A program made the position numbers and the translations under genes. A DNA stretch of 64,000 bases. It comes from Oidiodendron maius Zn. Taxonomy: Eukaryota; Ascomycota; Leotiomycetes; Myxotrichaceae. The stretch spans positions 1,006,245-1,070,244 of the forward strand of contig KN832873.1 of NCBI GenBank assembly GCA_000827325.1, given 5' to 3'. Below are positions 2,430-60,230 of this stretch, piece after piece (position 1 is the first letter of the stretch; the number at the start of each line of letters is the position of its first letter). Below the pieces are notes generated by a model, which was not told the origin of the DNA, ran no database searches, and saw only the letters and a list, made by a program, of their open reading frames with translations.

Positions 2430-5400
2430 TTATATAGCTCCGCCACTTATGACTTCCCTTCCCAGCAGCTCGACGCCATGCTCAGAAGTCCGTCTTCTTT
2501 CTAATACCCATCTCTCACCGGTTGGCGATTGAGGGTCGTCTTCTTTCGAATAGCTGATGCTTTCAGAACTTCCTGAGTACCGATGTTTTCTGACAACACT
2601 GTCCTTCTCCTTACCTTCCTTTGTTGATTCTCGGGGCTCGTGTAGGGGATACGATAAAGGTGCGACCGTTGGGCTTGCCGGAGCAGGACTCTGGTTACTT
2701 TGCACGCCACTCGCAACTTCAGACGCAATACTGAAGCCACTGAGCCCGCTGTTCTGCCTCCTATGCCCTCCCATAGGAAGCGTAGACACTATACCCTGTG
2801 TCCAAGGTGGTAGCTGCCCGATGGGACTAACTTCTTCCCCTGCAACGCTTCGAGGACTACCGTTACTACTATGAAGACTAACCTGACTGCCGCCCCATGC
2901 ACCTCTCCTCAGCTTCAGCAGTGCATCTAAGCTCATGTCACCTTCGTATTCAGGCATATCCGCCAGCTGTGCGAGACCCGGATTAATAACAGAATCAGGC
3001 CGGTGCACAGGTATTGACATGAAGGAATTGCGGTTGGAGTATTCAGAGCGCTCAGTTATGGGCGTGAGGTTAGGCTCCCGAGATACTATGCGGCCGCTCG
3101 TGCTCCGACCTACCCTCTCGACACCTCGAGGTCCGAAGTAGCCACCATTCGCATACTCGGCTTCGCCAGAGGGTGCGGAGTAGAAGCCAAACTCCTGGCC
3201 GTAAAACCCATCCATATCATTAGCAAGCACTTCTGCATTAGCAGCCGCGATGATTGGGTCGTCGTCCAGAGCATCGTCGTAGTCGAAGTCATCTTCAAAG
3301 TCGTAATTAGGAGAGAAAGGCTCATAGTGCGAAGTATGACTCGAGTCAGATATAAGTCCGGGCTGGGTATCTTCCTGCTCTGAAGGCGTGGGGATCGTTT
3401 GGGTGCTATCGCGGCGAAACCTTCCACTGGCAGCTGCATCGAATGCCGCTGCCGCCAAAGCCGACTGGTACGCAGCAAGACTATCGTGCGTAAGATGGTT
3501 CGGTTGTGCCGGTTGACGATCTCTCCCCATTCCAGCTACTGAAGGTTGTGGCGCCAATGCGACATTAGGACAGCTGGTCTCTGTTGGGACAGTATCTTTT
3601 TGTTTGGAGGACTGTACGTCGCTCTGACTTTCAGCGCTCTTTTCTGATGGAGCAATATCAGGAGGAAGGGTAGGCGGAGAGTAAAGAGTTGGGAGTAGTG
3701 TCACTGGCTTTAAGGGCCTTCCGTAGTTGTCGGTATCGACAGTATCAAATACTGACTCGTCAAACTCGCCAGGCTCATGCCCTTCTAAAAGTCCTTCAAT
3801 GAGGCCGTCATCATAATACAGATCATCATGCTCCATTCCAGAAGGTTGTGAGTACTCTGAGGTATTAGAATCCGTGCTCTTTGAAGATTTTAGTCCCGCT
3901 TGCACAGATAGACCGGTCCTAAGGTCTCTATTTCCTAAGCCAGCCACCGTTGAGCTACTCGTAGGTGGACCAAAAGTAGATGAAGCTCGCCATGTCTTCG
4001 AAATCGGACTTATATTATTCGAAGGGGTCTCGTCTGTGGAGGTAGAATCATTCGCATCCCCATTCGTATCCTGTGCCATGATTGGGCTGTAAGGACTTAA
4101 TTGAGTAGCCAGTTGTTGCCCAAATGAGAAGGCCGTCACATTTCCGCTGCCCAGACTGCTGGCGACTCCCGCACCAGCGCCATTCAAATGGGGTACTTGT
4201 TGCTGCAGATAGTTATAGGGTTCATCATCGTCATCGTCATCGTCATAATCAGCATTGACACCCGGTATTCTCTCCTCCAGATCGTCGTCATCGTCAATAT
4301 TATCATAGTTAAAGTCCTCGTCGAAATCATCAAATTCGCCTTCTGCTTTCTCATTCTCCTTCTCTAAGGCGCGCTGGCGATGTCTATCTTCTAACAATCT
4401 CTCTTGCTCGGCGGCCCCTATCATATCGAAGCTAAATCTTGAAGACGTGCTCTTCATAGGCTTTGGATGGCCTCCTGCATCCTTGGCAGAGACGTCTGAT
4501 GCTTTCCGCGATTGCCTTTTCTTTGATAGCGTGGATTTTGGCGACGTAGAAGCAGGGTCAATCGAAATACGTCTTGCCTCACCCGGGGAAGATCTCCCCT
4601 TCGTCTGAGCTGGGCCGTTCGGTTCGGCGCTGCCTGAACTAATTTGTCTATGTGTTCCATTTTCAGCAACATTGCTGTTCGGTTTCGATCTTGGGCGCTG
4701 GCCGTCTTCAGCATAGCGTGGCCTCGGCACTGTGAGGTCCAGCAAGTCACTGGCTTTCCGCACATGTTGTCTGACTGCAGGATACTGCTCTTCTTCATCT
4801 TGTCTGAAAACAAGATTCTCAGTTGTTCGTGCTCCACCCACAATTTCATCTGTAGGAAACGGACGCCTTGACTGGAATTGAGGGGTCTGGTGCAGCTGTT
4901 TGGGCCGGTTGGCATTATTTCCATCGATCAGAGGGGCATTGCTTGGTGCAACCCTTCTTGGCCTCGGAGCACTGAAGTCATGAACCACTGTCCCCTTTAT
5001 TCGAGGGTCGAAACTGTCATTAAAATTGCCTACTCGACTTGATATAGCAGACTCCGTAGAACTCTGAGGTATAACATTATTTGTTCTTCGTCGAGCCAGA
5101 AGGGACATGGGATTTAACAGATTCAGCCTCTTCCCGGCCCGGGATGATTCGAACGCGGCAATTGTATTTGCCGTAGATGGGGGAGGAGTAGGCAGTCTCG
5201 TACCGGTTGCTTGCCGGACAAATGATGGATTCGGGTCTGGTCTTTGAGCCTGCGAGAAGTCCTGGCCCATAGCCATCTGGGGTCTAACATGCTGAAAGCT
5301 AGGCTGCTGCAATGGGAGCAAATTTCCAGCAGAATCTGGCCTCTCAGAACCACCAATAGGTTTTCTTGGGACATTTGAGAATATGTGCATGTCTCGAGGC

Positions 5401-5711
5401 CGCGCGTTTTCTCTTGAGTTGTCGTGATTCCAGGCAGCATGCTCCCGCTCATAGGGCACTGGCCGTGAATTCCCACCCTTGGTATCTAGCAATGGATCGC
5501 CATCTGCAGATGACACGCGCGCAATCGGAGGGAAAGGAAGGGCTTGGTGAGCGTTTGTCGTCGAATCGGCAGATCTGACACCTGGATATCGCTGAGGATG
5601 TGCATGATTAGATGCAGTGCGCAAGGATGCTTCCCACGACGGAGCCTGCTCTGCGCCTGGCGACGTTGGATTCGAGGGCGTGCGCCGATGAGGGCGGAGG
5701 TAGGAAAACAT
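2430..5711 (-). CDS. Conserved hypothetical 1093-residue disordered acidic protein
   Basis: I do not recognise a catalytic domain. The single open exon encodes a hydrophilic protein dominated by Ser, Pro, Asn, Gln and Asp. Residues about 445-500 hold acid runs (DFDEDFNYDNIDDDDDLEE and DYDDDDDDDEP). Several ordered-looking islands are spaced along the chain: DLYYDDGLIEGLLEG, ESVFDTVDTDNYGRPLKP, HLTHDSLAAYQSALAAAAF, DMPEYEGDMSLDALLKLRRG, and a C-terminal block with GERWVLERRRTSEHG and LLGREVISGG. This island-in-disorder pattern suggests a conserved regulatory or scaffold protein. ATG at 5711 (MFSYLRPHRRTPSNP) is the first in frame and no intron is needed. Function and localisation are unknown; basic SKKRQSRK-type patches could be nuclear signals. 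Confidence 0.8.
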   Translation of the reverse strand: MFSYLRPHRRTPSNPTSPGAEQAPSWEASLRTASNHAHPQRYPGVRSADSTTNAHQALPFPPIARVSSADGDPLLDTKGGNSRPVPYEREHAAWNHDNSRENARPRDMHIFSNVPRKPIGGSERPDSAGNLLPLQQPSFQHVRPQMAMGQDFSQAQRPDPNPSFVRQATGTRLPTPPPSTANTIAAFESSRAGKRLNLLNPMSLLARRRTNNVIPQSSTESAISSRVGNFNDSFDPRIKGTVVHDFSAPRPRRVAPSNAPLIDGNNANRPKQLHQTPQFQSRRPFPTDEIVGGARTTENLVFRQDEEEQYPAVRQHVRKASDLLDLTVPRPRYAEDGQRPRSKPNSNVAENGTHRQISSGSAEPNGPAQTKGRSSPGEARRISIDPASTSPKSTLSKKRQSRKASDVSAKDAGGHPKPMKSTSSRFSFDMIGAAEQERLLEDRHRQRALEKENEKAEGEFDDFDEDFNYDNIDDDDDLEERIPGVNADYDDDDDDDEPYNYLQQQVPHLNGAGAGVASSLGSGNVTAFSFGQQLATQLSPYSPIMAQDTNGDANDSTSTDETPSNNISPISKTWRASSTFGPPTSSSTVAGLGNRDLRTGLSVQAGLKSSKSTDSNTSEYSQPSGMEHDDLYYDDGLIEGLLEGHEPGEFDESVFDTVDTDNYGRPLKPVTLLPTLYSPPTLPPDIAPSEKSAESQSDVQSSKQKDTVPTETSCPNVALAPQPSVAGMGRDRQPAQPNHLTHDSLAAYQSALAAAAFDAAASGRFRRDSTQTIPTPSEQEDTQPGLISDSSHTSHYEPFSPNYDFEDDFDYDDALDDDPIIAAANAEVLANDMDGFYGQEFGFYSAPSGEAEYANGGYFGPRGVERVGRSTSGRIVSREPNLTPITERSEYSNRNSFMSIPVHRPDSVINPGLAQLADMPEYEGDMSLDALLKLRRGAWGGSQVSLHSSNGSPRSVAGEEVSPIGQLPPWTQGIVSTLPMGGHRRQNSGLSGFSIASEVASGVQSNQSPAPASPTVAPLSYPLHEPRESTKEGKEKDSVVRKHRYSGSSESISYSKEDDPQSPTGERWVLERRRTSEHGVELLGREVISGGAI

Positions 5712-7600
5712 CTGCGTAGAGGGTATTCGAGGGTCGAGAGGGGGCCTTGGTGGCGTTTATGCTGCAGCTTCCAGGACGGATTGGGATAGAAAATGAGCGA
5801 TTCAGTCTACTCGAGCTGCGCTCATGATCGCAGCTCCAAGATCTCGCCGGCGCCGTCAAGACACTGCCGCGTCCCGGTGCGCCCTGGCCGTGCAAGAGAT
5901 CTGTATGTAATTGCGGCCCTCACAGCACCGTCGACGAGCGCGTCCAACGTGGAAGATCAATGACGTGCTGGGCGTTGGAGAAGCAGGGCGACGGGCGACA
6001 AGCGATCGGGGCTCTGGAGGCTCTGTGCAACTCAACTGACAGCTGCTTCCCGCGTGCGATAAAGGAGTGACCCGAAGGGAAGAAGGAGAAATTCTCGGGG
6101 GGGGAAGCTATTCACATGTTCCTAACGTCGAGGTTGCAGGAGATTTGCATGCGGGTTCATGTACGACGCACATACGAAAAGCACGAAATCCGGTACGAGG
6201 TTATTTACCAGTTAGTGCTGGAACGGCAGGGCCTCATCATAGTCCGCTCCATACAAATCCACGCTTCGGGTAGACCACACGTCAGAGATGCGGGATGAGA
6301 TTATTTCATCTCGGCATGGTTGATGGCGCTGTTCTCTACGGAATATTTATTTACAGTACTTCTAGAATCACTCGAGATCATCATGACAGTTCATGCGTGA
6401 GCAGGAGGGATATTACTCTACTGTGAATGTTCACCCTGAAGATTGTGCCGCTTCTTCTTATCTCCCCAGATAATAAATGTCCGATTATAGCCAACCCGGG
6501 CTATAATAAACCGCCGTGTCTCATTTCGCTGGTGGTTCTCGTATGTGCAGTGGCTTCTCTAGTTAGGATCGCTCAGTGTTTTCCGCACAAGCCCATAAAA
6601 CACCACAATCTCCATTCTCAGTCATATCCAATGTCGTCTAGCATCTACTCTCCAGTGAGGGTATCGGCTTTCTCCTTTTCGTGGTCCGCTGTCTTGAATT
6701 CCCTGTCTTCCTTCCATATTATTTTACACTTAGCTCGTAATATCCATGCACGCCCCTGAATTGCCCCTTTTCAAGGTATCTAACGCACACTGACGACATT
6801 CTGTTCCGGGCCATCTGTTGTAACTAGTAGTAGAAGTCATAATGGAGCTCATGCGGTTGTCAATTGATATATACAGGTCGCCGATTATGGTGAAGGTGCC
6901 TGATGGAGAGGTTCTAGTTAGCGACTGGCTGTGTATCATTCCCAACGTTTGGCTCTCGATAATTGGAAATATGTCTGGCATTCGTACTCTTGCCTGCAAG
7001 GTCTTTAGTTGGCTTCCGAGATGGCAATTCGTTCCGGCAGATTTCAGGACGTCTGTTACAAGAGTAGGGTTCTGCGCAGCGACATCTGGAATTTACAGCC
7101 GTGTGATATGAATTTGACGGAAAAAGAACTTCGAGCGAGCGAAGATGAAATCGAAATTCCGAGTTCCTTACCTCTCCCTTCAATCCAAATATATTGGAGT
7201 TAATATCCTTTTGATATGATTCAGATCTCATTCATCCGTATATAGATAAGTGAAATCGACCACTCAATTTGGAAGACAACGCTCTCTGTCAAAGAGGACA
7301 AAACCGTAAAAGAGAATGAATGGCGTGAATGGGATAATAAAGAGTACAGAGTGGTCACTGGCTTGATTCCATATCATGGAGATGAGAGAATGTAGGTTCG
7401 GATGTTTTCTTCAACCTTTGGAGATAAGAGACAAAAAGTCCGCAAAATACCAGGCGAGTCTCGAAGCCAGAACCATTTCTCAATAATTTGATTTTTGAGC
7501 TTAGTCTCTATGAATCATGATTCGCCATATCACTCTCATCCATCGGTAAACCATCCTCAAGCCACCCTATAATTTTGTCTCCCTTTTGCCATCCTCCACT
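5712..7600. other. Intergenic region between ARPC5 and the 1093-residue gene
   Basis: It holds the promoter and leader of the gene starting at 5711 and the 3' side of ARPC5. Overlapping frames at 6067-7231 on both strands give no family signature. The part from 7200 to 7560 is AT-rich and looks like 3' flanking sequence. Confidence 0.55.
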
Positions 7601-30548: not shown

Positions 30549-33500
30549 TCACTGCATGACGCTCTGCCTCCATCGCTCGACCATATCAATCTGTCCCTGA
30601 TTTAGCGGCTGCGCCGTCATCCCCATGCCCATATTCAGCATGCCCATACTGGCCATCGTGTTCTGCACCTGCGGCAAATACGCCATCTGCATTGGCGCAG
30701 GGTATCCCATGCCCTGAGCATAGCCTCCGACTCCTTGATACCCGCCTGCAAATATCACGGGGTTATTAGCATTATATCCCATCTGGCCCATTCCCAAACT
30801 CGGCTGTGGGAACTGGAATTGGCCTTGCGGTATCCCTGCTGCGCGGGTGTCGAACGGGTTGTGCTGGCGAGGGATCCGGGGTGCCGTGCCTGCTTGTCCA
30901 TCATTGTACATTCCGCCCTTGAACCCGCCCGCTGGAGCTCTGGAAGAGAGAATATTGTGCGTCGAGCCTGGGACGGGTTTGGGGGCACCCATGCGCTCGT
31001 TCAACCCGAGCAAGCCGGTCTGGGGTTTGGGTTGTAGAGAAGCACCGACTTGAGGATGGTGGTGCAGGATGTCTGCCATGCTATGTCGCTGTATAACTGT
31101 AGGGCGGGAGGGAGATTCTGCTGCGGGGGCTGGGCCAGAAGCCCCGACTTCAGCGGCGCGGGCCTGAGCTTCTGCCTGTAGGCGTTTGCGGCGCTGGCCG
31201 AGTGTTTCTTCTTCCTCGTCTGTCGGGGATTGTTTACCTTTGCTTTTTGTATCCTCGTCGAGGAGGTCACCACCGAATTGGCTCAGCATTTCCGATGCGA
31301 AGTCCCCGCTCACCGGTCGCGCTTTGGGGAGGTTGGTGGGGACTTCTTCCCCATCGGCTCCTCTCAGTCTTGCTAACCTCTCTGCTAACGTCTCGCCTTC
31401 GTCCTCAGGGGGGGTAGGTGGCGGTGGAGGATTCACACTGAGTAGCGATGCGCGATTCATGGGGATCTTGCCCTGCAGGCGATCACGGCGACGGCTCAGG
31501 GGCTCGTTGTCTTCCATGTCACGCCGCTCAATGAGCCCTAGGGGACGATTGAGGTCGAGGGACTGCGCCTTTTTGGCATTATTTGCGTAGATGAGGGCAA
31601 GGGGGACGTCATCATCGTCTTCTTCCTCCTCGTCATCGGATTCTGCTGCGCGTTCTTCCCATGCTAGAGTTACCCGCTTATGTTTCCTGGTCTCTGCTTC
31701 GGCCTGTGCGACGGCGTCGAGTTCGAGCAGGGTCGAATGCAGACCGTTGGGATACGCAGTGGCCAGAGGACGTGTGCGATGTTTCTGCTGCTGTTTGCGC
31801 AGTTGCAACTCAGCGAGTAGCGTAGTCGGCGCACCGTGATACTCCTCTTCCTCTGGCTCCTCTTCCGGCTCAGAAACATCCTCCTCCTCCTCCTCATCAC
31901 GAATAATCTTCCCAGCTCTGATATCCGCAATCATCTCCGCCCTTCTCTTCTCCGTTTCCGTATCTAGTGCATTACCCCCACTCGATCTTCTGCCCAGTAA
32001 ATTAAATGCACTTGTGCGCTTCTTCGGCTGCGCCTTCTCCTCCGGAGAAAGTAGATTCGCCGTGCTGCTCCTATTCTGCATCTTCGGCTGTCCGTACACC
32101 TCAGCACCGAGATGTCCCGCAATCAAATGGTCCGTAAACGCAGTCACTGGCGCATGGGCAGACGCATCCAGAATACTGTCTAATGTAGCAACGGCAGACT
32201 GCTCCTTCAACTCAACCACTTGTTCTGGCATAGGCATATCGAAGAATGCAGTTGCCCTCAACTGCGGCGGAAGGTGCTGTGCGTCCTGCGTGACTCTTCT
32301 CCCACCCATGCTCATCCTCTGATGTTGCGGCACGTATTCCAGTTGTTGAACCTCGTCATTATCAGGGAGGTCAGGCTCGTTCTCGATTTCTAGGACATCA
32401 GGGAGCCATATTGCGGCATGCCGAGCGGGTTCAGGAATGGTACTAAGAGCTTGGGTTCGTCTCTTACCCCGCGCTATCGATGATGGTGCTTTAGATAGCT
32501 TCTGGGGGAGATTGAGCATCACCGGTACTGGGGCAGGATAGTAAAGCATCTGCTGCCCGGTCTCTGGGTCCTCATATGATTGAGACCTTGCCATGGACAT
32601 GCGTTCCGCAGTGGATATTCTAGGCTGGCGCGGCCTTAGGTCTCCCGCGACAGAGAACCTGTCCTTCGCAGGCTGCTGCACATTTGAATCGATCCCGTCT
32701 ACCGTGAGCAGCGCCCCAAACGAGGAGCGCCGGGGTGAGACGCCCAGTGCGTCCAGCGGCTCGTGGATGGTGATCCGACGTTGCTGTGGCTCGGGAGGCG
32801 CGGGTGCGTGAGCTCCATCGAATCCAGCAAACATCTTCTCAGCATCCAAGGTATCTGTCGAGGACGGCGAAGATGGGCGATCCTCCTCGCCCCTGGGCTC
32901 GGGATTCCGCACCTCCAGCTTGCGATCCACAGGCAAGAAGTTCTCCTTCGGCCCCGTCGCCTCGATGGGTGACTGTGCGATAGGAGACTGTGCCATGGTA
33001 GGAGGCGGCGACGAGGAGGAGGATTGGACGAACGAGAACGAGTCGAGTGGCCTGCCTTCCAGCTCGGGCTCAGGGCGAGTGCCAAACCTCGAGCTCTTCG
33101 AGGTCGAGCGTGCCACGCCCGGGATGGTGGATGGGAGCTGCTCCACCAATTCTCTCTTGTGCGTCGTCGAAGTGATGTTCGTGTCTATCTCTATTGTCTG
33201 GCTCGTATTACCGGCTCGCGTGGATATCGTCACATCCGGGGAGGAACGTAGGGGGGATCTGCGGCTGCCATTTCGCTTGAGTTCACCGTGCAGGTCGCGG
33301 ATAGCGTCGTCGATGGACGAGGTCATGCTCAATCGCTCGGCCGTGCGCTCGAGTAGCTCGATCTTGTCGGTATATGAGGCCAGCAGCACGCGCTGGTCGT
33401 CAACGGGTGTGGGATGCCGCAGGTCGAGATGGTTGGCGGGCACGGCGGTACGCAGGATGGGTAGGCGGATGGCCTTGGACGATCCGTCACGCAGGCCGTC

Positions 33501-33866
33501 GTGGGCGTGTGAGGTGGTATTCTCCTCCTTATCGGCCTCCTTATTCTGGCTCTTATCCTGCAGGGCAAATCGATTCGGGGTTGTGATAGTGGGATCGTCG
33601 TCGTTCTCAAGGGCTTCAGTGTCGTCGACTTCAACCTCGTCGTAGTCGTCGTCCTCGACCATCTCGTAGCTGCTGTCGGTCTGACTTCGCGCTCGATTGC
33701 TCGGGTGCACGATCTGGCGCAACGCCTTGACAGCCACAGTCGTCGCCGTCGGCTGGTGAAGGCTCGTGTTGGGCGCTGGGCTATTTTTGGACGTGGTGTG
33801 ACCGCTGTCCAGGTCGCCGTCGCCCTCAACATCGAAGTCGTGCTGCTCGAGGGAGTCGTACGCCAT
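30549..33866 (-). CDS. Conserved hypothetical 1105-residue low-complexity protein
   Basis: No catalytic domain recognised. One long exon starts at ATG 33866 (MAYDSLEQHDFDVEGDGD); the frame stays open upstream but without another ATG in good context. Visible blocks are an acidic N-terminal stretch (MVEDDDYDEVEVDDTEALE), a possible short coil (TDKIELLERTAERLSM), a conserved-looking centre (RATAFFDMPMPEQVVELKEQ followed by TLDSILDASAHAPVTAFTDH), two DEGETLAERLARLR/EEEETLGQRRKRLQAE repeats in a Glu/Arg-rich region, and a Gly/Met/Gln-rich tail ending VERWRQSVMQ. The tail resembles aggregation-prone or RNA-granule regions. Function is unknown. It is most likely a cytoplasmic scaffold or regulator. 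Confidence 0.78.
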   Translation of the reverse strand: MAYDSLEQHDFDVEGDGDLDSGHTTSKNSPAPNTSLHQPTATTVAVKALRQIVHPSNRARSQTDSSYEMVEDDDYDEVEVDDTEALENDDDPTITTPNRFALQDKSQNKEADKEENTTSHAHDGLRDGSSKAIRLPILRTAVPANHLDLRHPTPVDDQRVLLASYTDKIELLERTAERLSMTSSIDDAIRDLHGELKRNGSRRSPLRSSPDVTISTRAGNTSQTIEIDTNITSTTHKRELVEQLPSTIPGVARSTSKSSRFGTRPEPELEGRPLDSFSFVQSSSSSPPPTMAQSPIAQSPIEATGPKENFLPVDRKLEVRNPEPRGEEDRPSSPSSTDTLDAEKMFAGFDGAHAPAPPEPQQRRITIHEPLDALGVSPRRSSFGALLTVDGIDSNVQQPAKDRFSVAGDLRPRQPRISTAERMSMARSQSYEDPETGQQMLYYPAPVPVMLNLPQKLSKAPSSIARGKRRTQALSTIPEPARHAAIWLPDVLEIENEPDLPDNDEVQQLEYVPQHQRMSMGGRRVTQDAQHLPPQLRATAFFDMPMPEQVVELKEQSAVATLDSILDASAHAPVTAFTDHLIAGHLGAEVYGQPKMQNRSSTANLLSPEEKAQPKKRTSAFNLLGRRSSGGNALDTETEKRRAEMIADIRAGKIIRDEEEEEDVSEPEEEPEEEEYHGAPTTLLAELQLRKQQQKHRTRPLATAYPNGLHSTLLELDAVAQAEAETRKHKRVTLAWEERAAESDDEEEEDDDDVPLALIYANNAKKAQSLDLNRPLGLIERRDMEDNEPLSRRRDRLQGKIPMNRASLLSVNPPPPPTPPEDEGETLAERLARLRGADGEEVPTNLPKARPVSGDFASEMLSQFGGDLLDEDTKSKGKQSPTDEEEETLGQRRKRLQAEAQARAAEVGASGPAPAAESPSRPTVIQRHSMADILHHHPQVGASLQPKPQTGLLGLNERMGAPKPVPGSTHNILSSRAPAGGFKGGMYNDGQAGTAPRIPRQHNPFDTRAAGIPQGQFQFPQPSLGMGQMGYNANNPVIFAGGYQGVGGYAQGMGYPAPMQMAYLPQVQNTMASMGMLNMGMGMTAQPLNQGQIDMVERWRQSVMQ

Positions 33867-35047
33867 GGTTGAGCGTGGTGAGCAGCACGGGCGTCGCGCT
33901 GGGAGGTGAGAGGGAGACAAGAGATGCGATGGAAGAGAGGTGAAAACACCACTGAGTGCAGTATCGTGCTGGTGGTGTTGGCAGAGTGGCGAGTGTTACA
34001 ACCGAAATAAGAACAAGACGAAGACTCAGGGCATGGCTGTGTCGTACATTAAAGGTCTTCCTTCTAATCGGGCTCAGCAGGTTTGGCTTTTGACGGCCCT
34101 TCGTGAGCCCATGGAGAGCCGTGAGAGCCTATCCATGGCCTTGGCCACCACCCATGCAATATACTTCCTACAAAGTACCAACACCGGACAAGTCAATTAC
34201 GTAGATACTGCATCCATGCACACATCCCATCCCATCTCCTCTGCCAGAGAGATCGTGTTACGCTACAGTGCATTATTCTGCCTCACAGGAACCATCGTGA
34301 CCATCGGCCCTGATCCCTCCATCCTCCAGGCACACCCGTCGTATTCCCCCCGGAAAACCCTTCTTTTACGACGTCGCGTCTAGACTTCGCGCCCACTGGC
34401 TCCACCATCCAACGGCTATCCAAAGAAATAAAAAGTGGGAATGCAGCGTCGTAATCCACAAATAGAATAACAACCAACTGGCAACACTACTCCAAACACC
34501 TCACACGCTCGACATCAAAATAATAATATGCAGGCAGAGAGGCTGAAACAAAAGGAATCATCTCGAGAAAAATTGACAGAAAAAGCCACTGATCAGCCCT
34601 GATCAGCCCTGCTGCATTCAGCTATCTAAGACAGATAGCAGATAATGCTCTTCAATACTGTACCGCACCGTACCGACCCTCCTTATCTCTGCTATCAGGT
34701 CTCCAAGCCGTTATCTCGTAGATCCGACGCCTCACCTGAAGAAACCTACCATAACCATTCATTTTCGAAAGGGATTCCGCCAAGGTGCCGAGTCTGGCTG
34801 AGGATGTGCTCTTATCTCCTGGGGGTACTTGTCCGGGCGTGCCTGTAAATGGGTACAGCAAGCTGGGCGCCAAAGGGGGGTTTCTCACTTTATGCATACT
34901 GGGAGGGGATACTCCGAGGAACTCAGGACATCTAAGCAGGGAGTAAGCTGGTCGGGGGTTTTGCTCCGGTAAAAAGACCACATATCACGAGGTTGCGAAG
35001 CGCTTCACTTTCGACCAATTCCCTTTCAACCAAGTCGATTCTCCGCA
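33867..35047. other. Upstream region of the 1105-residue gene
   Basis: Promoter and leader of the minus-strand gene, then about 1 kb without a convincing frame. An imperfect direct repeat of TGATCAGCCC occurs near 34591-34610. Confidence 0.5.
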
Positions 35048-51800: not shown

Positions 51801-53666
51801 CTAAGTAGCAGCGGCCACGGGCTTGCGCTTACGCCCACGACTCGAGGTCTCTTCTCCCGTCAGTTGACGAGACATAGGCGAGCCTCCGAGATGGCTGTTG
51901 GCTCGTGACATCATCTCTCCGCCAGGAGTAGGCACCTCGCCTCGCACATTGCTCTCGCGGAGGGTCGCGCGGATCCCGCTCTCCAAAAGGTGTTTGTCCT
52001 CCGACCTGACAAAGTAGTGGTACTTGCGTGGGGCGCTCGCCGCCTCCAAAAGGTTGCGGCCGCCATTCTCTAGGTCTAGGTTGCGGCCAAAGCCCTTGCG
52101 ATCGTTATAGAGTCGGGCCTGTCGTATGAGCTCAATCTCCGCTGCTGCATCGTCTGCCGAGAGGCCCTGTACACCGTTGGCGCCTTCGCCCTTAATGTAT
52201 CCCTTCTGCATCACACTGGCTAGAGGAGGAGGCAGCTTCGGGACCTGCTTGGTCAGAGCGGCCATGTTTCCGGGGTAATTGAGGTCGGTGATGGCGTCGA
52301 TACCCAGGCCGGTGATAAAATTGCCGGCAACGTTCGCTGCTCGCGTGCTGCGAGTTGCATGCGAGTACTGGCGCTCCATACCAGCACCAGACGGTACGGA
52401 TTCATCGTCATCTTCGCCTTCGTTTTCACCGGCCGCGCCATCGGGGTCAGTGCTGCCGTCAGATCTGTCATTCGGTGCAGCATAGATATCGTCGTTGAAG
52501 GGGTGGTGGCGTTGCATATGTGTGTGCGCGGCTAGAGCCGCCGTATTGTAGGTCATTGAGAGCTCCTTCTCAGTGAACAGCTTGTCGATGCTAAAAACAG
52601 CACCAGCCTGCTGGGCCGCCATGCGCTGCTTTTCGGAGAACCAGAGGGGAGTGCTATTGTCATTGTCAAGGCGTGGGCGGGTCGGTGCAGGAGACTCATC
52701 GCTGTCTGCAGCCTTGCGCTTCCGCTTGTTGCCATCCGCGAAGCTGGAGAGGTCATCTGGGTCACGGCGCCCTCTGGTCGCTCGCTTCCCGTGTACACCC
52801 GGGCTGGAAGGATTCGTGAGGCCGAATTGGTTGGGATGGAGGAGGAGGGCGTTACTATCAGAGATTTCCAGTGAATCCTTGTCCTTTGAAAGCCGGTTCT
52901 TCTTGCTCGTAATGCTGTTGATCAATCGGTCTCTCAGCGTGCTGGCCAGCGCACGATGCTCGCCCGCAGCCAACTTCATCCGGTACGTATGGGCGGCATT
53001 GAGTTCGTTCATCTTAACTTCATGCTCCCTCTGCAGAACAGTTAGATAGATGTCGCCAAATATAGGATCGCCACCTACCTTGTGCATGGTCAGAGCCGCG
53101 TCCCTCTCTTCGATCGCATCGTTGATCTCTTTGGCAAACGCGGCATATAGCTTTCCAGCTCGGGGAGGTGGATTAGCAGCGGCTGTCTTCCGAAGGGCCT
53201 TGACGTTCCCCTCCACGAGAGCCTCGATGGAACCCGGGCTGCTTGGGAGCGGTTCTTTTCCGAGGGCGTCCGCTTCCATAATGAGGTTCATGTCAATCTG
53301 AAGCGCCTGTAGCTGTTCGCGGTAGTGTATATCTCGATTCTGCGAGAAATGTCGAGTAATCTCCTCCAGACGGTCTGCGAGAAGCGTGCGACGTTTGTCT
53401 CGTTTGGATAGCTGCTGTGGAGGAGAGTTTGTGTGGTGCCTCTCCATTTTGTAGGAAGCCCCCAGAACGGGTGACAGCTGAGGCGATGGACTCATGGCCA
53501 TTGTCGCTTTCGCAGACGGCTTATTGTCATCAAGAGGATAGCGACTCACCAACCGATTGAGGAAGGCGTGCCTCCTATTGTTGTCGTCGTTAATATTGTT
53601 GGTGGTGCGGCGTGAGTGAATGAAAGCCCGGCTGAATTGCGATGCGCTTTCCTTTCGTTCCCACAT
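51801..53666 (-). CDS. Sds3/Dep1-like subunit of the Rpd3L histone deacetylase complex
   Basis: Predicted scaffold subunit linking the deacetylase to the Sin3 co-repressor. One exon, 621 residues. The Sds3-like domain begins at about residue 87: KRDKRRTLLADRLEEITRHF, then SQNRDIHYREQLQALQIDMN and LIMEADALGKEPLPSSPGSI. A helical stretch follows (KEINDAIEERDAALTMHKVG and VLQREHEVKMNELNAAHTYR). The middle is basic (NKRKRKAADSDE) and likely nuclear. The C-terminal half is partly conserved (FGRNLDLENGGRNLLEAASA, KYHYFVRSEDKHLLESGI). ATG 53666 (MWERKESASQF) is first in frame; ATGs near residues 56-58 are alternatives. Whether it corresponds to Sds3 or Dep1 cannot be settled by eye. Confidence 0.78.
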   Translation of the reverse strand: MWERKESASQFSRAFIHSRRTTNNINDDNNRRHAFLNRLVSRYPLDDNKPSAKATMAMSPSPQLSPVLGASYKMERHHTNSPPQQLSKRDKRRTLLADRLEEITRHFSQNRDIHYREQLQALQIDMNLIMEADALGKEPLPSSPGSIEALVEGNVKALRKTAAANPPPRAGKLYAAFAKEINDAIEERDAALTMHKVGGDPIFGDIYLTVLQREHEVKMNELNAAHTYRMKLAAGEHRALASTLRDRLINSITSKKNRLSKDKDSLEISDSNALLLHPNQFGLTNPSSPGVHGKRATRGRRDPDDLSSFADGNKRKRKAADSDESPAPTRPRLDNDNSTPLWFSEKQRMAAQQAGAVFSIDKLFTEKELSMTYNTAALAAHTHMQRHHPFNDDIYAAPNDRSDGSTDPDGAAGENEGEDDDESVPSGAGMERQYSHATRSTRAANVAGNFITGLGIDAITDLNYPGNMAALTKQVPKLPPPLASVMQKGYIKGEGANGVQGLSADDAAAEIELIRQARLYNDRKGFGRNLDLENGGRNLLEAASAPRKYHYFVRSEDKHLLESGIRATLRESNVRGEVPTPGGEMMSRANSHLGGSPMSRQLTGEETSSRGRKRKPVAAAT

Positions 53667-54072: not shown

Positions 54073-57000
54073 TTAAGATGCATTCGACCCAGCAGCTGGC
54101 ACCAGTGCAAAATCCCTGAAGTCTTTCGGGACCTCCCATCCATGTGCTTGGCAAGCTCGGATGTACGCTTCTACAGCTTCGCCCGTTCCATAACTTGAAC
54201 TCGCACCCTTAGCAGTACTCTCGAGGCGAGCAGGATTGGGCTCCAGGTTCATGATGGCCATACGAACTTGAAGAAGAACGCTCTCAATAGAAGAAACCGC
54301 GCTCCAACCACTATTGGTGAGCAGTTCCATGCACAGAGCACCGCCTCCTGTGACATGTCCGCCTCCACCTCTTATGAATGGGAGAAAGCGAGGCCTAATG
54401 ACTCGTACGAAGGGGGGGCTATGGGGATAGTCCTTGCCGAACCTGATTTCGAGCACAATACTCGTCAAACCGGCTTTCTTCATATCTTGCGCGAGGGGCA
54501 GAGAAGGCTCGAAGGAGTGAAGCTCCACAATCCATTGGTAGACGTTTGAAATCATCCCCGGATCAATATACCATCCAAGTTCATGTAGCGGTGTCGAAAG
54601 CTGGACTTTTAAAATGGACTGTAGTTCCTTACTGAGCCGCATGGTCGCCGATGGGGTTGCGTATGATGGAGCTTGCAATATCGGCAGCTTTGATTGGTCA
54701 AGAGAGCCAGGTCTAAAATCGGTCTTTGGTCCTGTTACTGTCTTTTTGGAGGTCCTATGTGCAATTAGTAGAAGCATAGGATGACATACCACGCAAATTT
54801 GGACTGCAATCGAGCAAAGAGCGTTGGTAAGGATGATACTAACAGCATGACTAGACCATCCTTCTTCCACTTGACCTTCGCAGACGTCGAGTCATCCTCG
54901 GAAAAGAGAAAGTTAATGTCCTCAGGGTCTTCGTCGTCACTAATGGCTGTTTGCAAAAGGTCCAATGTATCATTCGATGACGTGTGTTTACGTCTCTTGT
55001 TTGACTTTCTCGACTTGCCCGACTTCTCAGTCGCACGGGTTCGAAATGCCCTGGAAACTGACATGGCACTCTCCGGGATGCCAATGGGTTTTTTCAGCAT
55101 ACTTTTTGCAGTGTAGTTTGGATCCTGCTCTATCTCGATGATTGAAGGAGAATTCGTCAAAGAGCTCGTGTTGCTGCTAGATGTCAGATGTTATCATGAA
55201 CTGTGCGTGGGAGATGTCTAATTGCAAATTCCATCTCGCGGTAGATATTTTCAACGGATTCGACACACATTGTAATTAATAGGATATTCTTACCTGATAT
55301 CTAATCTAGCACGGGGCTGAGCGGGCTGGGTAGAGGCAGTTTGCACTAATAAGTATCTGCACTGAATCCAGTCGACATATTGAACAACAAGATATGGCGT
55401 ATGACTTAAATATTTCGATGGACAGTTGACAATTTCATTCAGACTCATCATTGCGCCGATCTTAAGATCAGATTGAGGCCAGTAAACCTGAAATTAATAA
55501 ACATTAACGATAATGTAATAGATAAAGCACAAGGGGGACCTACCGGTGTGGAGCCTGCATAACCAGAAGAGACGTTTTGTTCCAATGCATGGTACACCCC
55601 GTGTCCAAACGCTCTGCCGTGCAGGGTCTCCTTAAAGTCCAGACCATGGCGTATAATACTATGCCAGTTCGGAACAGGGCTTCCATGAAACGCAAATAAC
55701 GTTGGATAGATCTCGTTCAGATTTGATTGCTCCTCCTTAAGGGATTTCAGAAATCGCTGCTCTTTATCGGGTGCTCCTTGGGCAAAGCGAAACTGTACCC
55801 AGTCCGTGGGCACGTTGGAGCATTTCTCATTCGGTCGAATAGAAGACTCGTTGTCTTCTTGGCCTGGACATTTTTCAACTTGCACAATGCAAGAGCGATT
55901 AGAGGCGATGATCCACCGAAGCAATCCCAGTGCGGCCGGGGTAATACGCTCTTTCCAGCGTCGTAGGTCGGGCTCCGTGACTCGACTTTGTTGAACGAGA
56001 TATTCTCGTATTTCCTTGATAGAGGGTAGTGTATCTAGTAGTAGGATTATGGCCTCAGCTTTCATATGATTGTCCATATCATCAAAATTCTGATCATAAA
56101 CTGCCAGCTTTGCGGCGAGGAGAGTATTAGGTGCCGGGGTCGTTGCTGGCGTGAAAGGAGATTCTGTTCCAGTAATTAAAGCGGAGTTCTGAGAATATAC
56201 TGCATTGCCCCCCGCATGACGAGTCAACCCACACTCTGATAGCTTCACGGTGGGATAGAGTGAAACGTCCATGACGCGATGATGCATTTGCTGATAGCCT
56301 AGATCAAAATTAGCGACGGCAGATATCAGATTGTAATAGTCTAGGAACATATAAATTTACCTAATGGCGTTACAACGACCCAATCTCCATTTCGAAGTGA
56401 GCACGGCTGGTCATCTTTAACGATGATTTCCTTGCGAGCCAGATCATATTTTACATCAAGCGCATCAAAGTTAAATCCTGGTCTTGACGCCGAACGCATA
56501 CTCCCTCTCGCAAGCAATTTGCCTGCTTCTAGGTGAGACATAGCAGCCGGTGGGCTGACAGTAGGAGCAATGCTTTGCCCATGTGGCGCCACAGGATTTG
56601 TGATAGGTCCCGTGGGAGGAGGAATCAAAAGACACATGCCGGTAGGGTATTCGCGTATTCTCTGGGCCTGGATTGAGATGTTAGCGTATGTCTAGGAGAT
56701 AATGATGAATATTTTGTCAACTTTAATGTCCGAACTTACTTTTGCTGCAGCATAACAAAGGCTTACAAGAAGGTCAACAACAAAGGGTTGAGTTATGATC
56801 TCATGCTCTAGGCTAGGACCGAATCCGAGAGACATGTATTGATAGAGACAGAGAGGATTGCTGCAGACGTAAGGCTTTAAGGCTTCGAAGTCCCCCGGAA
56901 GGCTATCATGGCAGACGAGGCAGAACTCAGTACAACGAAGTAAATATCGCATGGCGAATTGGGTGGCAACAAGAGGAAAGGAAACGCCTATGCCCATTGA

Positions 57001-58317
57001 GTCCGCCTGATGGTCACCCTTCATAAAATCTGGCAAGGAGCCTTGCGTTAGAGGCTTCTCCTTGTAGTACTCTGCAGTAAAGACGAAGCCTGTATCGTAG
57101 GGCCGGCCTTGGTGGTTTTTATAGAAGAGCTTAGCGCCGTCCCACCCAATACTCGCACTGCTTCTAATCTTGACAAGGGAGATAAGTGCATCGTTGAGAA
57201 ATCCATTTAACGAGCTGCTGATGAATAAGCTGCTGAAACGCGATGCCTCGTCGAACTTTGGTCCTTCTGAATTATTTTCTTTTTTGCCTGTCTCTGCAAA
57301 TGCTGCCAGGGCCTCAGCTGGAGATGGCTTATACCTTGAGCAAATTCCAATGCGAAAGGAGATATCAAGTGATTTGGCTGGCTCCAATATTATCGCCTCA
57401 AATGACTTATACCCCGATAAATAGCGTATGAGGAGGACTATGTGCTGATGCAGATCAAGATCCCAAGCTTGGAGAGCCTCATTCGATAATCCGAGCTTTG
57501 AAACTTGTATTGAGATACTAAGCATGCTTGTCTGTGACTCGGCCTTTAAACCGCGCAGAATACCCAATTTGAAGCCTGCAAACTTGGCAGAACGAAGATC
57601 CGATCTAATTCGCTTGTTCAATTTTGCTGCAGCCTCAACACCTATGACGCGATTTGAAGCTGCAGACCAGTCTGCCTCAAGTGATTTGAAATCTTCCTCT
57701 TCAGAAAGAAAAGCTGGGTCATCATATTGGTCATATTCATCCTCATCTGAGTCGAAATTACCATCTCCTTCATCATTGGTCATGTCCAATTCAGAGCTAT
57801 CGTCAATATTAAAAGGATGGGACGAAGTCCCGGTTGCAAGAACTTTCTGGAGTCGCTCAGCAACGCTCTCAATGAGATCGGAAACTTCCTTCCCGGTGGA
57901 GTTGCGACCAGCTGCCTCCAAAATACCATTGACACCATCCGGGACCTCGGGAGATTGCGCGAATATCATGAATGTATTCTCTGAAGGATAGCCCGAAACA
58001 TCTGGTTTGAGTTAGTAGACACCCTAAGCAAACGCGAAAGATGTATATGACTAGCACATCTTTCAAATTGTACAATGATATTCTCGTTACGATCTTCCAG
58101 CAGGGTAGTGCAAAAGTGAACTTTATAGCATATATGAGGCTAGGGAAAAATAATACGTACCAAGAGCAAGCATCCCGATGTCGATCAGGGGTCCTGAGGG
58201 AGGTGCAAACACGAAGGCGACATCGCCATCATCGTCCCCTTTGCGTACTGAAACCACATTTGGAATTGGCTTCTTGGACGCTGCTGCAACATCATTATTG
58301 AAGGCCTTTCGTGGCAT
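54073..58317 (-). CDS. PARP-UBC fusion: PARP6/8-like ADP-ribosyltransferase with UBE2Q-like E2 domain
   Basis: Seven exons (58161-58317, 56740-58001, 56361-56667, 55544-56298, 55294-55487, 54844-55176, 54073-54754) join to 1229 residues with correct phase at every junction. Residues about 119-158 are acidic. Residues 413-440 hold a Cys module (CLVCHDSLPGDFEALKPYVC, then CLYQYMSLGFGPSLEHEI) known from animal PARP6/8. The PARP fold follows with FAFHGSPVPNWHSIIRHGL (His780), GRAFGHGVYHAL (Tyr811) and DWIQCRYLLVQT. By hand alignment the Glu of PARP1 is replaced, which suggests mono- rather than poly-ADP-ribosylation. The C-terminal 200 residues form a UBE2Q-like E2: GWYIDPGMISNVYQWIVELH, IRFGKDYPHSPPFVRVIRPR and GGGALCMELLTNSGWSAVSS with catalytic Cys1144. 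It probably modifies proteins with ADP-ribose and ubiquitin; targets are unknown. Confidence 0.9.
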
Positions 58318-59117
58318 TGCTGCTGATCGTGTTGTCGTGCGGCTTCGATGACGAGAAGCTGCACGGCCAAGATAGGTAAGGCGGAGGTGGACAGCAAAGG
58401 ATTCCTCTTCTGTCTGCTAAATATCGTCGCCGATCCAGCCTATCATAGGGCGAGATAAAGAGAGAGATTAACTAGTCGGCATGCAGTGAATGTACAGGTC
58501 GAGGCACCTGCAGCTGGCCAGCAGCGGCACCTTAATAGCGCGTACGAACTCGGCTCGAATGCGGTTGTAGAGACTAGAAACGAGACGATCAAGAAAGGCG
58601 TGTGAGAGAATGCCAAAGAGAGAGTGAAGGAGAAAGAGAAAGAGCAAGCGTACGGCAGACAGATGTCAAGACATCGAAGTAGAGGCTATGGGATATTGGG
58701 GCCCTGGCAGCCTGCAGCCTTGCGCCTGGGGTGAAGCTTGATTACGCGAGGCAAAGAGAAGGGGTAGAGAGAGAAAGAGAGAAAGAGAGGAAGAGAGACG
58801 AGAGGGCGTGTTAGTACTCTCTAGTCTACGTCAAGCGTCGATTACCTCATGGCAGTGACCAAGACAACAAAAGACGGTCGGTGGTGGGCCGGGGCATCTG
58901 ATATGTTTTGCTCTTTCAATGATGGAGCGACAATGGCTGGTGCTGATAATACAAATGCGTGGAACGGCCCGAGCTGGGGGAGGGGTTGGGCGCTATAAAT
59001 GATGGGCGTCTGGATAGATTCTATGCTGGCAGTGCTCCCCACAGCCAACGGCAACTCCCAAATGGTTTCCGCTCGTCCTCCACTCCAGACGTCCAAGTCC
59101 CCTCTTGTATATGCGAT
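58318..59117. promoter_or_regulatory. Divergent promoter region with purine-rich repeats
   Basis: About 800 bp separate the starts of the PARP-UBC gene (minus) and the COG7-like gene (plus). Plus-strand purine tracts at 58600-58650 and 58750-58807 consist largely of GAGA/AAAG units, typical of fungal bidirectional promoters read as CT-rich on the other strand. Confidence 0.5.
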
Positions 59118-60230
59118 ATGGCGTGGGATTCTAAGCATGCCCGGCGGCGCCAGAACAGCAGCGCAGGCAAGTCGGCACCCGCCCAGCTACGACCCGCCCC
59201 AGCTGCCTTCACTGCACATTCTGCACACGTTACAGACCCAGCTCTTCAGCCTTTCCTAAACCCCTCCTTCGACTCCGCCGACTACCTTAATGCCACGCTA
59301 CCTGCTCTCCAAGCTGCAGGAACCGGTCAATCTGCCAAAGCGGGTGTGCCTTTGGCAGAATTGTCGGCCCAGACCCAGACACTCCTTTCTCAGCTCAGCG
59401 CCCACACCACGAGACTGACGACGACACTTACTCAGCTCACAGATGAGATCCTGCGGAGCGGCAGTCGTCTAGCATATGAAGTAGAGGTGTTACGAGGGGA
59501 GACGCTAGGCCTGTCAGAGGCCCTGACGGATAGTTTACAGGAAGATGTGATTAAGTTTGTTCCCGGTGGCCTCGAACAGAACCTCGCCCGGAGGCAATCT
59601 CGAGTTGCTGATGTCAGTGGGCATCGAAGACGGGCATCTACAATTGCAACACCAAAGACTCCTCTTAGAGAAGAGCCCCCGCTTGCTCCTCCTGTAGTAG
59701 CTGATCCTCCCTACATTACACAACTGCGGACCCTCACGCTGGTCCGTTCGCGGCTGGATACAGTGATCAAAACGTTTGGTGACGCCATGGCGTGGACATT
59801 TCCACCCTCCGAAGTCTCGGTTACGTCCTCCTTCCTATCCGTCTCAGCACCGGAGCCGGGATCAGATTCGCATAGCACCGAGGAGAAGGGACAGGAGGTG
59901 TCCAAGAAACTTCGGGATGAGATTGCGGCCCTTTTGATTGGCGAGGATCCGGTCAGCTGCATCGAGGCTGCTGCAAAGCGCGTAGAAGAGTTGAAAGACC
60001 TAGCTGTAGTGTGGAAAGGTACAGCTGAGGACAAGGCCCGGATCAAGTTCGTCGACAGCCTGGCCAAGATGGTGGAAGACCGGCATCGGGAGCTATTGCG
60101 GGATGCTGAAAGCGATGCAGGCCTCCGTCGGCGGGTGGAAACATTAGCAGAAGAGGGGTCTGTTGAGAGTAGGCCTCAGGGTGGTTATGGATTTATTAGC
60201 CAGTTACAGAGGCTCCGAGGAGCATCATAG
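59118..60230 (+). CDS. Probable conserved oligomeric Golgi complex subunit 7 (COG7-like)
   Basis: Putative subunit of the COG tether for retrograde transport within the Golgi. The N-terminal block FLNPSFDSADYLNATLPALQ is followed by a long coil (LSAQTQTLLSQLSAHTTRLT, TTLTQLTDEILRSGSRLAYE, VEVLRGETLGLSEALTDSLQ), like the N-terminal COG7 rods. Later come YITQLRTLTLVRSRLDTVIK and AMAWTFPPSEVSVTSSFLSV, then a charged C-terminal helix region ending FISQLQRLRGAS. The in-frame ATG at 59118 (MAWDSKHARRR) is used; the frame is open 5' of it but only with GTG. A first exon with an intron ending CGTTACAG near 59237 is an alternative start. Length is 370 residues. The COG7 assignment rests on family memory of the coil pattern, so confidence is moderate. 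Confidence 0.6.
   Translation: MAWDSKHARRRQNSSAGKSAPAQLRPAPAAFTAHSAHVTDPALQPFLNPSFDSADYLNATLPALQAAGTGQSAKAGVPLAELSAQTQTLLSQLSAHTTRLTTTLTQLTDEILRSGSRLAYEVEVLRGETLGLSEALTDSLQEDVIKFVPGGLEQNLARRQSRVADVSGHRRRASTIATPKTPLREEPPLAPPVVADPPYITQLRTLTLVRSRLDTVIKTFGDAMAWTFPPSEVSVTSSFLSVSAPEPGSDSHSTEEKGQEVSKKLRDEIAALLIGEDPVSCIEAAAKRVEELKDLAVVWKGTAEDKARIKFVDSLAKMVEDRHRELLRDAESDAGLRRRVETLAEEGSVESRPQGGYGFISQLQRLRGAS

Follow-up and report, generated by a model that had tools for sequence, protein, structure and literature searches.

A predicted polypeptide of Oidiodendron maius Zn that joins PARP6/8-type and UBE2Q-type ubiquitin-conjugating domains

A predicted Clade 6A PARP in Oidiodendron maius

The 64,000-nucleotide (nt) stretch of Oidiodendron maius Zn contig KN832873.1 analyzed here (positions 1,006,245 to 1,070,244; hereafter the window) contains a gene (contig 1060317-1064561) in which a PARP6/8-type ADP-ribosyltransferase domain and a UBE2Q-type ubiquitin-conjugating (E2) domain are joined in one polypeptide, as originally predicted; the spliced reading frame, Pfam matches, and matches to solved structures agree on this. 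PARP-UBC architecture has been known since 2005, and the O. maius protein is an added member of fungal Clade 6A rather than a novel architecture, since both Otto et al. (2005) and Citarelli et al. (2010) have published it. In the account of Otto et al., pARTc of G. zeae and EAA66581 of A. nidulans are fusions of both enzyme domains, the second being referred to there as a ubiquitin ligase (PMC1266365). Citarelli et al. defined Clade 6A by the components FPE, PfamB_2311, PARP, and UBCc (PMC2964712), and Perina et al. (2014) add moss and Chlamydomonas (PMC4245714). The presence of such fusions in filamentous fungi, which the original prediction had mentioned, is documented (PMC1266365, PMC2964712, PMC4245714), and a link between ADP-ribosylation and ubiquitination through the fusion was already proposed in print in 2005 and 2010 (PMC1266365, PMC2964712).

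The O. maius protein shares with other fungal Clade 6A PARPs the order of a PARP domain followed by a C-terminal UBCc domain with its catalytic cysteine, the absence of the triad Glu, and a long N-terminal region. It differs in that their N-terminal RWD-like FPE domain lacks Pfam confirmation here: a YPSENTF pattern near the N-terminus resembles RWD by eye only, and residues 1-110 scanned alone with Pfam at E 10 matched no family, FPE itself lying outside the library. The Histoplasma Clade 6A gene is reported to be expressed only in the filamentous stage (data not shown in Citarelli et al., PMC2964712). The roles of what a 2025 review calls 'PARP6/8's enigmatic E2-like folds' are still to be described according to that review (PMC12687431), and our literature search, conducted mostly without subscription journals and without preprints, returned no papers that address the biochemistry of this fusion in fungi.

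The UBE2Q-type E2 domain

A domain search of the 1228-residue translation placed both PF00644 and PF00179 above their Pfam gathering scores. The match to PF00179 (UQ_con; 32.1 bits, cut-off 27) spans residues 1103-1177, and an overlapping match to PF05773 (RWD) stays below cut-off at 16.3 bits. When the E2 exon was compared with solved structures using phmmer, the first match was 1zuo (8.1e-23), which the structure table names LOC92912 and which we take to be UBE2Q2, followed by 2qgx (UBE2Q1; 1.5e-19), with the third of 24 matches at 3.5e-6. Against 2qgx, 61 of 155 aligned residues are identical, and UBE2Q1 Cys351 and His409 align with Cys1143 and His1206, respectively. The predicted E2 cysteine is therefore present, but its number is 1143 in the seven-exon model and not 1144 as first given. 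The HPN motif was not found, and GGGGHVTGGGALC stands before and at the E2 cysteine. UBE2Q1 and UBE2Q2 (PMC10971424; 2qgx, 1zuo) have in common with this domain a UBC fold by sequence, the GGGAxCMELLT pattern around the cysteine, and the lack of HPN, whereas the O. maius domain sits behind a PARP domain.

The PARP domain

PF00644 (PARP) matches residues 768-824 with 34.5 bits (cut-off 26.7). A 111-residue piece of this region compared with solved structures found PARP2 (E 0.003-0.016), PARP16 (0.008-0.009), and tankyrases (0.06-1.5), and nearly all of the 42 chains listed to E 10 are PARPs, although two unrelated chains appear, at E 0.43 and E 0.68. The individual matches are weak, and the aligned stretch contains the HG and GxGxY motifs, with His780 (FHGS) and Tyr811 (GHGVYH) aligning with PARP2. 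No triad Glu was found in the final-strand stretch SHTPYLVVQYV; its place is taken by Pro858 or Tyr859, depending on gap placement in a weak alignment. PARP16 carries Tyr at the place of the catalytic Glu. None of the Clade 6 proteins surveyed by Citarelli et al. has the triad Glu, and the human members are predicted mono-transferases (PMC2964712), so mono-ADP-ribosylation is expected of the O. maius protein as well.

The two structure comparisons of the PARP region, with 40 and 42 chains in their lists, contained no PARP6/8 structure. Residues 413-437, which precede the PARP domain, read C413-x2-C-x15-C-x4-C437 and fit the CX2CX9-19CX4C motif defined for PARP6/8 homologues (PMC4245714); when the protein was shuffled 2000 times, such a motif arose once. 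Human PARP6 and PARP8 thus share with the O. maius protein this motif before the PARP domain and the lack of a triad Glu, and differ in that a UBC domain is undescribed there in the PARP6/8 literature consulted. The suggestion that both folds keep their central motifs was partly right: the PARP His and Tyr and the E2 Cys are retained, and the triad Glu, HPN, and the equivalent of UBE2Q1 Tyr343 (a His here) are not.

PARP, E2, and ADP-ribose genes in the genome

The fusion gene is the only PARP and the only UBE2Q-like E2 found in the O. maius assembly (45.9 Mb, 58 contigs, in which a gap is possible). Searches with PF00644 (controls positive in 0 of 14 genomes) and with a PARP2 active-site fragment (E 0.006) each returned one match, the fusion gene, and there were no matches in the assembly to PF05406 (WGR; controls positive in 2 of 14 genomes) or PF02877 (PARP_reg; 0 of 14). 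The PF00644, WGR, and PARP2-fragment searches together point to the absence of a Clade 1 PARP, with the fusion gene serving as an internal positive for the first and last of these. No fungus examined by Citarelli et al. had Clade 6 without Clade 1 (PMC2964712); all surveyed Clade 6 hosts had both, and a true loss of Clade 1 would therefore make O. maius, in whose assembly none was detected, an exception. If the assembly truly lacks a Clade 1 PARP, PARP-type ADP-ribosylation in this fungus would depend on the fusion protein alone.

For PF00179 the assembly yielded 29 matching pieces among 35 candidates, the fusion gene included. A search with the E2 exon protein at E 0.01 gave two matches, itself and one at 3.4e-4 with 28% identity, and a second UBE2Q-like E2 was thus not found.

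The assembly also encodes candidate erasers. PF01661 identifies one macrodomain gene (144.6 bits; locus L022, 1231-1956, plus strand; controls positive in 8 of 14), which is presumably MacroD-like from its motif, and an open frame beside it on the other strand resembles a glutaminyl-tRNA synthetase, again by a motif. PF03747 (ADP_ribosyl_GH) has four matches, two of them strong (controls 5 of 14), and these genes together with the macrodomain gene could reverse ADP-ribosylation. PF05028, PF10021, and PF16062 (two PARG families and a MavL-like one) and PF18102 (Deltex C-terminal) have no matches in the assembly, and because their controls were positive in 0 of 14 genomes each, absence of PARG, MavL-like, and Deltex proteins is not established by this.

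Proposed function and alternatives

We give about an even chance to the interpretation that this Clade 6A PARP acts as a PARP6/8-type mono-ADP-ribosyltransferase coupled to a UBE2Q-type E2 that passes ubiquitin to a nearby hydroxyl. The PARP part would use NAD+ to attach one ADP-ribose unit either to a target or to the fusion protein itself, and the E2 part would be loaded with ubiquitin at Cys1143 by a ubiquitin-activating enzyme (E1) and would then hand it, perhaps without a ubiquitin ligase (E3), to a hydroxyl held nearby. The acceptor would likely be either a Ser or Thr of that target or one of the ribose hydroxyls on the freshly attached ADP-ribose, given the preference of UBE2Q enzymes for hydroxyls and sugars rather than lysine: UBE2Q1 and UBE2Q2 pass ubiquitin on to Ser, Thr, glycerol, and glucose and are relatively weak on lysine, and UBE2Q1 needs neither its N-terminus nor an E3 to ubiquitinate a peptide (PMC10971424).

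Several observations weigh against this interpretation. On the PARP side, the PF00644 match is partial, covering positions 48-101 of the 199 in the profile, and matches of the region to PARPs of known structure reached E 0.003 at best. On the E2 side, Tyr343, His409, and Trp414 of UBE2Q1 are essential for discharge and not for loading (Rehman et al., PMC10971424), and the position of Tyr343 is His1135 in the fusion protein; among UBE2Q1 mutants at the three essential sites, only Tyr343-to-Phe discharged on peptide (PMC10971424). The His1135 substitution is the main argument from sequence against a simple transfer of UBE2Q1 chemistry. Matching Trp1208 to Trp414 as well as His1206 to His409 requires the loop before the Trp to be three residues shorter than in UBE2Q1 and UBE2Q2, and in an ungapped arrangement a Cys replaces His409; the Trp pairing follows from residue numbering alone, as the printed alignment ends at UBE2Q1 His409. 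The chemistry of the fused E2 may thus differ from that of UBE2Q1. AlphaFold prediction of the contiguous E2 exon alone gave a mean predicted local distance difference test score (pLDDT) of 41.7, and the model was not used. Finally, no relatives of the E2 exon were present at E 1e-3 among pattern-matched stretches of prokaryotes (0 of 37) or viruses (0 of 5).

A possible alternative, to which we lend a lesser degree of belief, is that the two domains simply form a scaffolded pair in which the PARP marks a target and the E2 relies on a separate E3 to place ubiquitin on lysines or Ser/Thr, whether of that protein or of a different one, with no hybrid bond being made. This would be ordinary E2 behaviour, a hybrid product is without evidence, and the legend of the Clade 6A alignment describes a His near the catalytic Cys as common to typical UBCc domains (PMC2964712), but the absence of the HPN motif, which is linked to lysine reactivity (PMC10971424), speaks against it.

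The interpretation in which the E2 serves a nearby hydroxyl has a more specific form that we consider rather unlikely, namely that one polypeptide writes ADP-ribose-ubiquitin, the PARP domain adding mono-ADP-ribose and the E2 forming an ester on its ribose hydroxyl without Deltex, in an assembly where no other PARP and no Deltex were found. In 2025, human cells were reported to contain ubiquitin in ester linkage to mono-ADP-ribose that is itself bound to protein, and Deltex E3s are reported to ubiquitinate ADP-ribose in vitro (PMC12000418). A one-protein writer of this mark is plausible because a mono-transferase is here joined to a UBE2Q-type E2, and UBE2Q1 ubiquitinates hydroxyls and sugars (PMC10971424). 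The likeness to MARUbylation by PARP10 or PARP7 with Deltex E3s is that mono-ADP-ribosylation and ubiquitin would share one site; the difference is that there ADP-ribose is ubiquitinated in vitro by separate Deltex E3 ligases, whereas O. maius has a fused E2 (PMC12000418). We found no earlier statement of the one-protein idea in the literature searched. If it is true, the fusion would offer a simple one-protein route to ubiquitin-on-ADP-ribose marks in place of one requiring separate Deltex E3 ligases.

Two further alternatives change the role of the PARP domain. PARPs commonly self-modify, and with the domains in cis the PARP could modify the E2 domain of the same chain or the ubiquitin carried there and so act as an NAD+-dependent switch on E2 activity; this is improbable, there being no direct evidence and no modified residue indicated by the sequence. 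Slightly less probable still is a catalytically dead PARP domain that supports an active E2 by binding or by sensing NAD+. The missing triad Glu and the partial Pfam match would fit such a role, but His780 and Tyr811 are retained, and Glu absence is the rule in the Clade 6 survey, where the human members are nonetheless predicted mono-transferases (PMC2964712).

Gene structure

The seven-exon gene model and its domain assignments are listed in Table 1. The original prediction of a single seven-exon open reading frame holds, with an open spliced translation of 1228 residues plus a stop (the 1229 codons claimed include the stop) and no internal stops; in the spliced frame the PARP and UBC parts run on with no stop between them. 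Translation starts at an ATG at 58317, upstream of which the open stretch runs to 58416 with no further in-frame ATG. The basic cluster in the linker is a possible nuclear signal.

Table 1. Predicted features of the O. maius fusion gene (window coordinates).
Feature	Position	Strand	Evidence
Whole gene, ATG to stop	54073..58317	-	Spliced translation open throughout; seven exons preferred, 1228 residues
Exon 1, 157 nt; N-terminus, possible RWD-like FPE region (by-eye pattern only) that continues into the first part of exon 2	58161..58317	-	
Exon 2; acidic stretch and cysteine-rich motif C413-x2-C-x15-C-x4-C437	56740..58001	-	
Exon 3	56361..56667	-	Spliced translation, codon score
Exon 4; part of PARP catalytic domain, His780 and Tyr811	55544..56298	-	PF00644, PARP2 alignment
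Exon 5; PARP-domain C-terminal strands, Pro858 or Tyr859 at triad-Glu position	55294..55487	-	Alignment weak here, -1.5 bits
Exon 6; PARP-E2 linker, basic cluster KSGKSRKSNKRRKH from residue 942	54844..55173	-	
Exon 7; UBE2Q-type UBC (E2) domain, His1135, Cys1143, His1206, Trp1208	54073..54754	-	PF00179, UBE2Q structure matches
Possible extra micro-exon, 63 nt, disfavoured	58058..58120	-	In frame; codon score -0.12; poor splice signals

All six introns (58160-58002, 56739-56668, 56360-56299, 55543-55488, 55293-55174, and 54843-54755) have GT-AG ends. Those of introns 1, 2, and 6 are inferred, as all 12 of 12 combinations of alternative ends keep the frame open and phase alone cannot choose between them. 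The exon 3 acceptor has three in-frame options, giving an intron of 48, 72, or 78 nt, of which the 72-nt intron is preferred because a CTAAC site lies shortly before CCAG. A 35-nt form of the last intron (54789-54755) was rejected: the 54 nt that it adds to the exon score -0.27 in frame, which is intron-like.

Codon use was scored with a table trained on long open frames elsewhere in the window, five in number and two with a Pfam match. The expected frame ranks first of three in all seven exons, with values of 0.26 for exon 1 and 0.19 for the linker exon (55173-54844) and the lowest, -0.16, for exon 5, and the best-frame values of the five introns scored range from -0.19 to -0.55. Short exons and introns cannot be told apart by this score, exon 5 standing at -0.16 and short introns reaching -0.19. 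Inclusion of the micro-exon would give a protein of 1249 residues with the E2 cysteine at 1164. Its value, that of the expected frame and the best of its three, exceeds those of all five scored introns and of exon 5, and codon use thus does not reject it; the seven-exon model is kept over it on the sole ground that its splice signals (an AAAG acceptor and a GTGCTA donor) are poor.

That neighbouring PARP and E2 genes have been misread as one is highly improbable: the gene model is predicted from the DNA sequence, and the alternative ends at three introns all keep the frame, but the linker exon scores best in the expected frame, no stop separates the domains, and fungal proteins with the identical fused order have been published (PMC1266365, PMC2964712).

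Neighbouring features of the window

The window contains 20 stop-to-stop frames of at least 200 codons, of which 15 were scanned with Pfam, three belong to the fusion gene, and two lie outside the scan. At E 0.001, none of the 15 scanned frames had a match to families of ADP-ribose or ubiquitin proteins. The open frames at 2430-5756 and 30549-33995 (both minus strand; 1108 and 1148 codons) have no Pfam match at the same threshold. Directly downstream of the fusion gene is an Sds3-like open frame (51801-53666, minus strand; PF08598, 77 bits). The opposite strand upstream carries an open frame (58950-60230) with a sub-threshold match to COG5_N (20.5 bits versus the 31.2 required), and purine-rich GA repeats occupy 58604-58795, upstream of the fusion gene start.

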